From the NCBI GenBank assembly GCA_947449875.1, contig CANFSY010000005.1:1-58125 (forward strand): DNA of 58,125 nt. Direction: 5' to 3'. Position numbers and translations under genes: made by a program. This document shows, one piece after another, positions 44,343 to 49,235 of the stretch. The stretch is from Paracoccaceae bacterium. GTDB taxonomy: Bacteria > Pseudomonadota > Alphaproteobacteria > Rhodobacterales > Rhodobacteraceae. Numbering within the stretch: the stretch's first letter is position 1; every line of letters begins with the position of its first letter. A model generated the notes under the pieces. That model ran no database searches, had not been told where the DNA came from, and saw only the letters and a list, made by a program, of their open reading frames with translations.

Positions 44343-45005
44343 ATGGACGTCGCAGCCGCCACGCAGACCCCGATCAAAACCGCCGCTTCGGCGGATAAGC
44401 AAGCCAACGACAAAAACTACGACACGTTTTTGAAGATGATGACGACCCAGATCAAGAACCAAGACCCCCTCAACCCGATGAGTGCCGATCAACTGGCCGT
44501 ACAATTGGCCACCTTTTCCGGCGTCGAACAACAGACCAAAACCAACGACCTTTTGGCCCAGCTTTTGGGGCAAAGTGCGCTGACGGGCATGGGCCAAATG
44601 GTCGGCTGGGTTGGCAAAGAGGCGAGGATCGCCGCCCCTGCCTATTTTGATGGCGCAACGCCCGTAACTTTGTCGCCCAATCCGGCGCAGTCGGCCACAA
44701 AGGCGGTTCTTGTGGTCACCGATCAAAGCGGCAAGGAAGTGTCGCGCACCGAATTGCCGCTTGGGTCGAAAGACTATGAATGGCAGGGCCGCGATTCCAA
44801 GGGCGAAGCTTTGCCAAAAGGTGTTTACACTTTGAAACTGGAAAGCTGGCAGGGGGATAAAGTGATCGACACATCCCAAGTCGAATACTACGCCAGAATC
44901 AGCGAAATTCGCAGCACATCCGATGGCCTTTCCGCCCTGCTGCCCGGCGGCGTGGAAGCCCCGATTGCCGCCGTCACCGCCATTCGAGAAAGAAAAGATA
45001 TCTGA
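44343..45005 (+). CDS. flgD: Flagellar hook cap protein FlgD
   Basis: YDTFLKMMTTQIKNQDPLNPMSADQLAVQLATFSGVEQQTKTNDLLAQLL. Confidence 0.96.
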   Translation: MDVAAATQTPIKTAASADKQANDKNYDTFLKMMTTQIKNQDPLNPMSADQLAVQLATFSGVEQQTKTNDLLAQLLGQSALTGMGQMVGWVGKEARIAAPAYFDGATPVTLSPNPAQSATKAVLVVTDQSGKEVSRTELPLGSKDYEWQGRDSKGEALPKGVYTLKLESWQGDKVIDTSQVEYYARISEIRSTSDGLSALLPGGVEAPIAAVTAIRERKDI

Positions 45006-45091: not shown

Positions 45092-46033
45092 ATGATCGAA
45101 TATGCCAGCAACCGCGTTCCTTTGAAGCGTCTGTGCGAAACGGGCGGCGTCTTGGCCGTGATCACGCAGATCGTGGGAACGTCGTATCGCAACCTTGGCA
45201 CGATGATGGCCTTTGGGCCACAGGGCCAGCGCACAGGGTCGCTTTCGTCGGGCTGTATCGAGGATGATATCGCCGAACACGCCGCCATGGCACTGCAAAC
45301 CGGTCAGGTGCGCGCACTGCGCTATGGCCAAGGCTCGCCTTTCTTTGATTTGAAGCTGCCCTGTGGCGGCGGGCTGTCGATTTTGTTGATCCCAAATCCC
45401 GACCGCGCGGTTTTGCACGAAATTCTAAGCCGCGGCGATGCCCGAATCGAGGCGGCCTTGCGGATCACCCTATCGACGGGGGCGCTGGCTTTGGTCACGC
45501 CAGAGCAAACCAGCGCGGGGCCGGATGCGCTTGTCATCGTTCTGGAACCGGAACTGCGGTTTTGGGTTTACGGCCACGGGATCGAGGCGATGTCCTTTGC
45601 CCTGATGGCGCAGGCGGCGGGCTATGATGTCACCTTGTTTGGCCAAGAGGGTTTGCAAACCGACCTGTCGCGGATCGGGCCGTTGAACGTGACGCTGGTG
45701 CCCAGCTTTCGCAGCTATATCTGCCCCAAGCCCGATCGACGCACGGCTGTGACCTTGTTCTTTCACGACCACGAGAATGAGGCGCGTCTTTTGGCACAGT
45801 TTCTTCCCTCAGACGCTTTGTTCATCGGCGCACAGGGCAGCCTGAAAGCGCGGCAGCGCCTGCTGGCCGATTTGCACGCGCAAGGCGTGGCGCCAAGGGC
45901 GATAGAACGGCTTTGCCCCACCTTTGGCCTGATCGGATCGTGTCGCGATCCGCGCACCTTGGCCGTTTCGGTCTTGGCCCATGTCTTATCGCTTGCCGGA
46001 CCTGCTGTGCAGGCGTATTCAGACAGCCATTAA
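45092..46033 (+). CDS. XdhC/CoxI family molybdenum-cofactor-related protein
   Basis: GGVLAVITQIVGTSYRNLGTMMAFGPQGQRTGSLSSGCIEDDIAEHA...LPCGGGLSILL...DALFIGAQGSLKARQRLLADL. Confidence 0.85.
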   Translation: MIEYASNRVPLKRLCETGGVLAVITQIVGTSYRNLGTMMAFGPQGQRTGSLSSGCIEDDIAEHAAMALQTGQVRALRYGQGSPFFDLKLPCGGGLSILLIPNPDRAVLHEILSRGDARIEAALRITLSTGALALVTPEQTSAGPDALVIVLEPELRFWVYGHGIEAMSFALMAQAAGYDVTLFGQEGLQTDLSRIGPLNVTLVPSFRSYICPKPDRRTAVTLFFHDHENEARLLAQFLPSDALFIGAQGSLKARQRLLADLHAQGVAPRAIERLCPTFGLIGSCRDPRTLAVSVLAHVLSLAGPAVQAYSDSH

Positions 46034-46036
46034 GGT

Positions 46037-48004
46037 TTGACATTCGGGCGCGTCTGGTTTGGGGCGTCGCTTACTGACATTTTAGGAAACAAATTGGCAT
46101 TGGCGGACCCCTCATTTTTAAGCTGTGTTGAAACGCTTCAGGCTGCCTTGCAGCGCTGGGGCGCAGACACCGTTGCCTTGGAACGCGGCGATCTGTTTCG
46201 CCTGCACGGGATAGATCAGTCGAACACCGTTGTGGGGTTGGACGATCTGTTTTTCGTGGTGCAAGACGACCATTTCATCCCCAAGGGCGAGGCGGGGATG
46301 CAGCTTTTGAATCAAGAACTGATCAACACCGCCACGCTGCGCAATGCGTTTTTTCCGCAAATCCTGATGGCGCATGGCGAAGATCTGGATGTGTCTTTGA
46401 ACGTGGTGTTTCAGGGCCGATTTCAAGTGACGGTCTATCAATGCCGCATGGATCAAGAGCCGGTGGCGCTGGTTGAAAAAATCATCGCCTCTGACGAGAT
46501 TGTGGAAGCCGACGTGGCCATAGGGGCGCTAAGCACCCTTCCGCGCGGGGTGCGGTTGTTTTGGGTGGCGCGGGCCTTGTCAGACACCTGCGTGTTGATT
46601 GACGCCACGTGGCAAGCGCGTGCCCCTGCCGCGACACAAGCGCGCATGATTGTGGCGATTCGCACCTTTGGCCGCAGCGCCGAGGTGCAGCGTCTGCTGG
46701 CGCGGTTTCACGAACAGGCGATTGCCAGCGATTATGGGCAGATGCTGAAGAACACCTTCTTTTTGGTCTATGACGCCTTAGGCACAGGGGCTGCGCCCTA
46801 TGCGCCCCAAGGGCAGACTGACCCGCTGAACCTTTTTGTCATGTCAGGGCCCAACATGGGCGGCGCTGGCAATTTAAGCTTGGAACTCTTGGCCCTGCAA
46901 ACTGCCGTTTCAGCGGCGGGCATCACCGTAGACGAACTGGTGATCGCCGATGACGATCTGTCAATTTCGCTGGAAAGTCTGGCGCGCAATTGGGCCGCAA
47001 CGTTGTTTCGCAAGGATCAAGCCTTTCACACTCTGCCGATTTTCCTGAAATCCGAACCGCGGATGATGTGGGAGGATGGCGGTTTTTGGGGCCGTTACAC
47101 GAGAGATAATCCGGGCGGTCAGCGTAGCGCAGTGGCCCCGCGCCTGCTGCGCCATGCCAAAGTGTTTCACGGTGCCAACCACTTGGGCGAGATGGCCCGC
47201 CTGCACCATCCCGAATATTCGGCCTTTATCTTCCTGTCGATGCCATACGCCCGCTTGGCAGACTTGGGCCTGCCCTGCGCGATGTTCCTGCGCGGCGATG
47301 ATATTGAGTATTGTTTGCGCCATGTCGCTTCGGGCGGGGTGACTGTGTCAAACCCCAACTTGGCCGCGTGGCATGAACCGGCCCATTCTTATGCGCAGGA
47401 ATATATGAGCATCGCGCACGGTGTGATCATCAATATGACCTATGGCCAGCGCAAGCCTGACGATCTGGCGACCTTTTTTCACCGCCGCGCCGCCGTGCAT
47501 CTGTCGCTGTCAGACGTGGCGGGCCTGACCGTCTATGCCGAGGCTTTGGCCGATCTGGTGGCCTGCGATCGGTTGTTGCAGCCCGATTTTGCCGGCCATT
47601 ACCTGTCCGTTATGGCGCGGTTCAAAAGCTTCGATGCGGCTTTTTCGGTTCTGGCGGATGAACTTATAGCCTCGCTGACCGAATCCTCGGCGCGCGAGGG
47701 CAAGATGACCGTTGTGGCCCCGTTTTTGTATATGGACCCCCATTTCAGCAAAGACCCGCTGGATCACGTGGTTTTGGTCAACACTCACACCGATAAACGC
47801 TGCATTTACGACCCGTTCGAGACCGACCGTTTGGCCGCCCTCTCCAGCGTGGCGGCGCGGCTTTATGCCAGTTTGGCGGTGTTTATCCAGAATTTTGACA
47901 CGCTGCGCGGGCATTACCGCGAAAGAATCGCCACCTCTGCCTCAGCCGCCTTCTGGCTGGCAGAGGCAGAGGGCAAGGCGTTCGGGGTGCTGCATGGCGG
48001 ATGA
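46037..48004 (+). CDS. Large glycosyltransferase, GlfT2-like (galactofuranosyltransferase type, GT-A fold)
   Basis: 655 aa; MIVAIRTFGRSAEVQRLL...LFVMSGPNMGGAGNLSLELLAL...TVDELVIADDDLSISLESL...PRMMWEDGGFWGR...AAWHEPAHSYAQEYMSIAHGVIINM, resembling the PNxGGAGG / DDD / W-H-E-P arrangement of GlfT2. Confidence 0.75.
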   Translation: MTFGRVWFGASLTDILGNKLALADPSFLSCVETLQAALQRWGADTVALERGDLFRLHGIDQSNTVVGLDDLFFVVQDDHFIPKGEAGMQLLNQELINTATLRNAFFPQILMAHGEDLDVSLNVVFQGRFQVTVYQCRMDQEPVALVEKIIASDEIVEADVAIGALSTLPRGVRLFWVARALSDTCVLIDATWQARAPAATQARMIVAIRTFGRSAEVQRLLARFHEQAIASDYGQMLKNTFFLVYDALGTGAAPYAPQGQTDPLNLFVMSGPNMGGAGNLSLELLALQTAVSAAGITVDELVIADDDLSISLESLARNWAATLFRKDQAFHTLPIFLKSEPRMMWEDGGFWGRYTRDNPGGQRSAVAPRLLRHAKVFHGANHLGEMARLHHPEYSAFIFLSMPYARLADLGLPCAMFLRGDDIEYCLRHVASGGVTVSNPNLAAWHEPAHSYAQEYMSIAHGVIINMTYGQRKPDDLATFFHRRAAVHLSLSDVAGLTVYAEALADLVACDRLLQPDFAGHYLSVMARFKSFDAAFSVLADELIASLTESSAREGKMTVVAPFLYMDPHFSKDPLDHVVLVNTHTDKRCIYDPFETDRLAALSSVAARLYASLAVFIQNFDTLRGHYRERIATSASAAFWLAEAEGKAFGVLHGG

Positions 48005-48530: not shown

Positions 48531-48620
48531 CCGGCGTGGCAAGGCAGCCTTGGCTTGGCGAATTCCCTTTCGCGTGGAAATCGGCTAGACCGTGACCACC
48601 CTACCGGAGCGACCCTGACC

Positions 48621-49235
48621 TTGGCCAATCATCTGCACAAAAATGACCTGCCCGTCGGGCTAAAGCTGGGCCCCATCGTGTCCATAGATACCGAAACCAT
48701 GGGCCTTGACCCGCGCCGTGACAGGCTGTGTGTGGTGCAGCTGTCGTCGGGCGATGGCCATGCGCATATCGTGCAGATTGAAAAAGGCCAGACCAGCGCC
48801 CCCAACTTGCAGCGCCTGCTGACCGATCCGGCCATACTGAAGCTGTTCCACTTTGGCCGCTTTGACATTGCCATGCTGCACCAAGCCTTTGGTGTGCGGA
48901 CGGAACCTGTCTGGTGCACCAAGATTGCCGCCAAACTGGTGCGCACCTTTACCGATCGGCACGGGCTGAAATATCTGCTGAACGAATTGGTGGGCGTTGA
49001 TGTGTCAAAGGCGCAGCAAACCTCTGACTGGGGCCAAGCCACCTTGAGCGAGGCGCAAAAAGACTATGCCGCCTCTGACGTTTTGTATCTGCACCGGCTG
49101 AAAGACGCGCTGGAGGCGATTTTGATCCGCGAAGACCGCCTGACCTTGGCGCAACGCTGCTTTGATTTTCTGCCCACACGGGCCGAGCTGGACCTTTTGG
49201 GATGGAACGAACCCAATGACATCTTCCACCACTGA
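48621..49235 (+). CDS. rnd: Ribonuclease D-like 3'-5' exonuclease
   Basis: IVSIDTETMGLDPRRDRLCVVQLSSGDG...LFHFGRFDIAMLHQAFGV...TKIAAKLVRTFTDRHGLKYLLNELVGVDVSKAQQTSDWG...DVLYLHRL. TTG start chosen; ATG 48555 also in frame. Confidence 0.9.
   Translation: MANHLHKNDLPVGLKLGPIVSIDTETMGLDPRRDRLCVVQLSSGDGHAHIVQIEKGQTSAPNLQRLLTDPAILKLFHFGRFDIAMLHQAFGVRTEPVWCTKIAAKLVRTFTDRHGLKYLLNELVGVDVSKAQQTSDWGQATLSEAQKDYAASDVLYLHRLKDALEAILIREDRLTLAQRCFDFLPTRAELDLLGWNEPNDIFHH

Follow-up and report, generated by a model that had tools for sequence, protein, structure and literature searches.

A rare alphaproteobacterial clade of the GlfT2 superfamily and its predicted beta-trefoil partner

Introduction

The mycobacterial cell wall is where GlfT2-type enzymes are best known. 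GlfT2 proper is a bifunctional galactofuranosyltransferase and galactan polymerase, a homotetramer that uses UDP-Galf as donor and alternates beta-(1-5) and beta-(1-6) Galf transfer. In the window analysed here, the whole stretch of 58,125 nucleotides from a Paracoccaceae bacterium, a sequence-only reading had picked out a GlfT2-like galactofuranosyltransferase-type gene next to a flagellar cluster, and had suggested that its product could build a galactofuranose-like surface polymer or decorate lipopolysaccharide or flagella. The locus raises the question of how close this gene stands to GlfT2, with which genes it keeps company, and on what glycan its product might act.

Results

The transferase gene and its reading frame

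The features of the region are as follows:
44346..45005, forward strand: flgD, upstream neighbour outside the unit (PF03963, 2.6e-19)
45092..46033, forward strand: xdhC/coxI family gene, upstream neighbour outside the unit (PF02625, 3.3e-15; PF13478)
46037..48004, forward strand: transferase gene, predicted GlfT2-superfamily GT-A glycosyltransferase; longest open reading frame, 655 aa
47994..48530, forward strand: partner gene, predicted beta-trefoil (R-type-lectin-like) protein of 178 aa, whose start overlaps the transferase stop
48555..49235, forward strand: rnd (3'-5' exonuclease; PF01612, 1.5e-40)

A frame of 655 codons is open at exactly 46037-48004 on the forward strand, and its motifs follow one another as the sequence-only reading had them, PNMGGAGNLSLEL, then ADDDLSISLES, then WHEPAHS. 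Translation probably begins at the TTG at 46094, which would give a protein of 636 aa, since an AGGA lies six bases upstream of it and the orthologues align from about residues 15-29. Sister species have full-length orthologues at the corresponding position, with identities of 75-80% and 57-59%, and relatives in other genera share 34-43%; this sequence conservation confirms that the open reading frame is real and not a product of chance, and among 16 sequences the motifs vary little or not at all. By hydropathy, neither the transferase nor its partner has a transmembrane-like segment or a signal peptide, so both proteins are likely to be cytoplasmic. A class-wide sample of 385 genomes (E <= 1e-20) returned the transferase family from its own genome only, and the family is thus rare; among the viral contigs scanned, no relative was found.

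Fold and family of the transferase

When the protein was compared with solved structures by phmmer, only GlfT2-type galactofuranosyltransferases matched (best E 1.4e-5). A profile built from 16 relatives matched GlfT2 of Mycobacterium tuberculosis (4FIX) with an E of 8e-19, profile positions 54-482 aligning to chain positions 60-487, which spans the N-terminal domain and the GT-A core. The AlphaFold model of the transferase (pLDDT 81, pTM 0.82) has low pLDDT near the active site, at residues 348-367, 387-397 and 441-446. Comparison of this model with GlfT2, a check that the sequence-only reading had proposed, showed a match over the whole length with the GT-A fold present: in Foldseek, the full-length matches were GlfT2s only (for 4FIX, E 5e-28, 667 alignment columns and TM 0.66/0.69; TM 0.66-0.71 over the GlfT2 matches), and the shared fold includes the C-terminal domain. 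Sequence profile and model together place the protein as a three-domain GT-A member of the GlfT2 superfamily. The earlier call of a GlfT2-like GT-A enzyme thus stands at superfamily level, both the solved relatives and the full-length Foldseek matches being GlfT2s. The window transferase matched no family in Pfam or NCBIfam, and the proposed search against the Pfam GlfT2 domains accordingly returned neither Glft2_N nor GlfT2_domain3; Glft2_N was matched by 3 of its 16 relatives (best E 2.8e-4).

A separate clade beside ordinary GlfT2-like proteins

In a tree of 42 rows, for which the program warns of long branches, a branch of length 3.41 with 100/100 support separates the transferase clade from all other rows, among which the GlfT2s of mycobacteria and Nocardia cluster with other proteins from Rhodobacteraceae. 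On another contig of the same genome (G000:C3; L109 9545-13698) there is a glf-GT2-GlfT2-like cluster, whose GlfT2-like protein matches Pfam Glft2_N above the cut-off, and the window protein is therefore the second GlfT2-superfamily gene of its genome. A phmmer search of the genome with the window protein missed this other gene because the two proteins are too far apart; it came to light when the glf locus was read. Given its own deep clade, the missing Trp347/Trp348 and the ordinary GlfT2-like gene beside glf in the same genome, the window transferase is not, judged from sequence, the GlfT2 orthologue. Of the original proposal, the superfamily assignment holds, but a counterpart of GlfT2 does not fit a protein with its own clade, a Phe-Ile pair and an ordinary GlfT2-like companion in the genome.

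The ordinary Rhodobacteraceae GlfT2-like proteins (for example L109:9545-11467 and L115:72-1961) have the superfamily and the domain order in common with the window transferase; they differ from it in sequence, with 16-19% identity, in keeping the aromatic WW or FW, in several Pfam Glft2_N matches, in lying usually near glf, and in having no trefoil partner within the flanks read. Some GlfT2-like proteins are about 1000 aa long (L013, L028, L036, L037, L039 and L046), and in most of these a second stretch resembling the N-terminal domain precedes the usual architecture.

Active-site residues

Profile alignment with GlfT2, with residue roles taken from PMC7168186 and PMC6863818, gave the following correspondences, all on the forward strand:
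46949..46957, forward strand: D305-D306-D307, equivalent of the metal-binding D256-D258 of GlfT2; invariant in 16/16
47225..47230, forward strand: F397-I398, where GlfT2 has W347-W348; replacement specific to the clade, F-I in 16/16
47297..47302, forward strand: D421-D422, equivalent of GlfT2 D371-D372, second DXD-type motif; invariant in 16/16
47372..47374, forward strand: H446 of WHEPAHSY, equivalent of GlfT2 H396; invariant in 16/16

In GlfT2, D371-D372 form a second DXD-type motif and a candidate catalytic base (PMC7168186). The GlfT2 enzymes of M. tuberculosis (4FIX/4FIY) and Nocardia (9DTP) resemble the window transferase in the full-length three-domain fold, in the DDD, the second DD, the His and the Gly-rich motif, in having no transmembrane segment and in the presence of glf in the same genome. 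The window transferase differs in its separate deep clade, in an identity of about 16% by structural alignment, in its pairing with a trefoil gene and in three replacements: Phe-Ile for Trp347-Trp348, Leu or Met for Tyr236 and Arg for Lys369. At the Trp347-Trp348 position, the other GlfT2-like proteins aligned have WW or, in two, FW; around E300 the alignment of the clade to GlfT2 is uncertain. With the Trp pair of the GlfT2 pocket changed to Phe-Ile and Tyr236 to Leu or Met, the donor may differ from that of GlfT2.

A predicted beta-trefoil partner

The partner gene, which the sequence-only reading had overlooked, begins within the last codons of the transferase, and the two genes overlap or nearly touch across loci. 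Of 17 distinct loci, 16 have a homologue of the partner after the transferase (the window, 15 loci of relatives, 14 of them with the partner, and a Ponticoccus plasmid), while the other neighbours change; the pair is spread over Rhodobacterales, Cohaesibacter and Sphingobium. No partner homologue was seen beside the other GlfT2-like genes examined, with a flank of about 1.5 kb for most. The sole transferase locus lacking the trefoil gene is L055. In this sister genome the transferase gene appears to be split over two contigs (L055:12-1469, L080:2251-2682); it follows flgD, apparently without xdhC, and no trefoil gene lies ahead of rnd.

The AlphaFold model of the partner (pLDDT 85, pTM 0.81) has beta-trefoils as its top Foldseek matches (HA17/HA33, CBM42A and designed trefoils), with TM up to 0.81 by target length and weak E-values, the best being 5e-4. 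Its profile matched a designed beta-trefoil (E 2.7e-5) and, weakly, the HA33 hemagglutinin. CBM42A belongs to a trefoil class that binds arabinofuranose; FGF-like matches also appeared among the Foldseek results, and beta-trefoils serve non-sugar roles too. RicinB_lectin_2 was matched by 1 of 13 members only (E 0.05), and no Pfam lectin match was above the cut-off; NCBIfam gave the partner no solid match either. From model and profile, the partner is predicted to be an R-type-lectin-like beta-trefoil; it shares three W-containing repeats with the R-type lectin, CBM13 and CBM42 trefoils (HA33, HA17, Clostridium thermocellum CBM42A), and differs from them as a small single domain with neither a signal peptide nor a Pfam lectin match above the cut-off.

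Neighbourhood within and outside the genus

The neighbours are as the sequence-only reading had described them, with flgD and xdhC upstream and, downstream of rnd, a gene for a KpsF-type SIS-CBS protein and three genes taken, by reading the sequence, as lptC-lptA-lptB. Transferase orthologues occur in nine of 16 genomes of the genus, one of them split over two contigs, and in eight of these nine carriers the gene follows flgD-xdhC. In the window and in five relatives the pair is succeeded by the rnd-kpsF-lpt genes, which are not found there in L053 and L054. Flagellin and fliK genes lie within 6 kb of the pair. Sister species without the pair keep flgD, and two of them have flgD immediately next to rnd, with no xdhC, transferase or trefoil gene between. 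Since the loci outside the genus differ and these two species have a flgD-rnd junction, the flagellar position is a local trait of the genus and not a functional signature.

Eight loci outside the genus were read. In Cohaesibacter, RTX, fliK and DUF2147 genes are followed by the pair and two uncharacterised genes; in SZUA-611, the pair is followed by a sulfotransferase-like gene, an uncharacterised gene, glf and RTX, with rnd-kpsF-lpt on the other side. The pair precedes a sulfotransferase gene in Frigidibacter, sugar-metabolism genes in Thioclava and a gene that is sulfotransferase-like by sequence pattern in Pontibaca. The Sphingobium locus holds glf, GlfT2-like genes, polysaccharide export and the pair, then two genes also seen in Cohaesibacter; the NORP153 locus holds glf, GT2, sulfotransferase, GlfT2-like, the pair and type I secretion genes. 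On the plasmid p-SCP1 of Ponticoccus alexandrii (L119), where both proteins of the pair are annotated as hypothetical, sulfotransferase-like (by pattern), GlfT2-like, capsule synthesis, cytidylyltransferase and RTX genes come before the pair, and a further gene that is sulfotransferase-like by pattern and pseudaminic-acid genes come after it. A flagellar gene near the pair was recognised in one of the eight, Cohaesibacter, with fliK about 1.3 kb upstream.

In four lineages (L057:10487-11245, L058:10554-11315, L061:10598-11548, L119:17440-18417) the gene immediately after the trefoil gene is sulfotransferase-like, with a Pfam match above the cut-off in L058, a weak one in L057 and recognition by pattern in the other two; the position of these genes hints that the product of the pair might be sulfated. 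RTX-repeat genes near the pair were noted, as a raw count, in three of the eight loci (L056:2792-4975, L057:13677-15854, L119:11073-14771). The two unannotated genes after the pair (about 200 and 240 aa) that Cohaesibacter (L056:10523-11835) and Sphingobium (L060:10561-11878) have in common gave no Pfam match for the Cohaesibacter copies.

Association with glf

The sequence-only reading had proposed to look for glf, the UDP-galactopyranose mutase gene, and it is present in the genome, on another contig than the pair. All 16 genomes of the genus carry it, whether or not they have the pair, as do 8/8 pair-bearing genomes tested, against 65 of 298 genomes of the family (22%). For the seven pair-bearing genomes outside the genus, Fisher's test gives p of about 3e-5, a value that ignores phylogeny and includes two genomes (Cohaesibacter, Sphingobium) that do not belong to the background family. 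The distance between glf and the pair is no more than about 15 kb in three lineages, namely SZUA-611, Sphingobium and NORP153. An ordinary GlfT2-like gene is found near glf in the window's own genome. Seven other genera were tested: six have such a gene near glf, and the sequence fetched for the seventh showed none. Shared ancestry and the clustering of glycan loci account for part of the co-occurrence of the pair with glf.

Discussion

We consider it fairly probable that the pair consists of a cytoplasmic transferase and a trefoil protein acting on a galactofuranose-containing surface glycan, a scheme in which we infer the donor, the acceptor, sugar binding, the contact between the two proteins and their role. 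The two-gene unit would comprise a soluble, cytoplasmic, metal-dependent inverting GT-A transferase and its beta-trefoil partner. The transferase would bind a nucleotide sugar, most likely UDP-Galf, through the DDD and His446, would use Asp421/Asp422 as GlfT2 does, and would add the sugar to a glycan built by the ordinary glf/GlfT2-like pathway of the same cell. In GalNAc-transferases, a GT-A transferase works with an attached beta-trefoil, which steers the choice of acceptor (PMC4432651). By analogy with this lectin domain, the trefoil protein may bind the glycan and hold the acceptor to the transferase, and the resulting product would be a surface polysaccharide or glycoconjugate that contains Galf and is sometimes sulfated. 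The likeness to the polypeptide GalNAc-transferases (GT-A with a C-terminal R-type lectin domain) concerns only how the pair might work; the two are not homologous as a unit, and here there are two separate bacterial genes, for a GlfT2-type transferase and a putative lectin. A bolder form of the proposal, which we hold as tentative and rather doubtful, is a split machine in which a GlfT2-superfamily transferase with a rebuilt pocket works with a separate cytoplasmic beta-trefoil lectin, which reads the galactofuranose glycan as it grows; the pair would then be equivalent, in two genes, to the catalytic-plus-lectin design of the GalNAc-transferases.

Several other readings have to be weighed. 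A role as a genuine galactan polymerase of the GlfT2 type, which would build a beta-Galf homopolymer on a lipid carrier, would agree with solved relatives by sequence that are GlfT2s only, with the full-length fold match, with the conserved DDD, DD and His and with the glf of the genome; it is improbable in view of the separate clade on a very long branch, the replaced W347/W348 and Y236, the failure of the window protein to match any Pfam GlfT2 domain and the more ordinary GlfT2-like protein, with its Glft2_N match, that adjoins glf in the same genome. The replacement of Trp347/Trp348 and Tyr236 would also suit an enzyme that uses another donor and has no direct link to Galf, the co-occurrence with glf then reflecting rich glycan repertoires; we give this little credence, as glf is present in every pair-bearing genome tested against 22% of the family and is physically close to the pair in three lineages.

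The pair might instead glycosylate flagellin or another flagellar part, flagellin O-glycosylation being cytoplasmic as both proteins appear to be, and this would account for a place between flgD-xdhC and rnd that is kept in most loci of the genus, for flagellin and fliK within 6 kb, and for the Cohaesibacter fliK about 1.3 kb upstream. Outside the genus, however, Cohaesibacter is the only one of eight loci with a recognised flagellar gene, the rest being glycan, capsule or unrelated loci, and the pair-less sister species keep flgD, two of them with flgD joined to rnd. The flagellar link drawn by the sequence-only reading is thus weak, its neighbourhood being limited to one genus and the surroundings elsewhere being mostly glycan loci; with the linkage genus-specific and a flgD-rnd junction in two sister species, we rejected a flagellar function as the lead explanation and leave it a slim chance. 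Very unlikely, in our estimate, is that the target is not a polysaccharide but an RTX-type protein or adhesin exported by type I secretion: of the eight loci outside the genus, three (Cohaesibacter, SZUA-611, the Ponticoccus plasmid) have RTX genes close to the pair and a fourth has HlyD/ABC genes, but no RTX gene was found in the window or the genus loci, and RTX genes are common in these bacteria.

In the titles and abstract beginnings of the literature we found no proteobacterial GlfT2 relatives of this kind, no pair of a trefoil protein and a Galf transferase, and no work on glycosyltransferases of the host genus. The transferase clade is real, unannotated and rare, belongs to the GlfT2 superfamily and has a trefoil partner, and our results suggest that the pair is a previously unnamed two-part machine that decorates a surface sugar. 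With its changed pocket and its lectin-fold partner, this deep sister clade from environmental alphaproteobacteria is a natural counterpoint to GlfT2, and a comparison of the two may help in asking what determines the donor and the chain length in furanose transferases; the pair also suggests that some bacterial transferases may choose their acceptor through a separate lectin.
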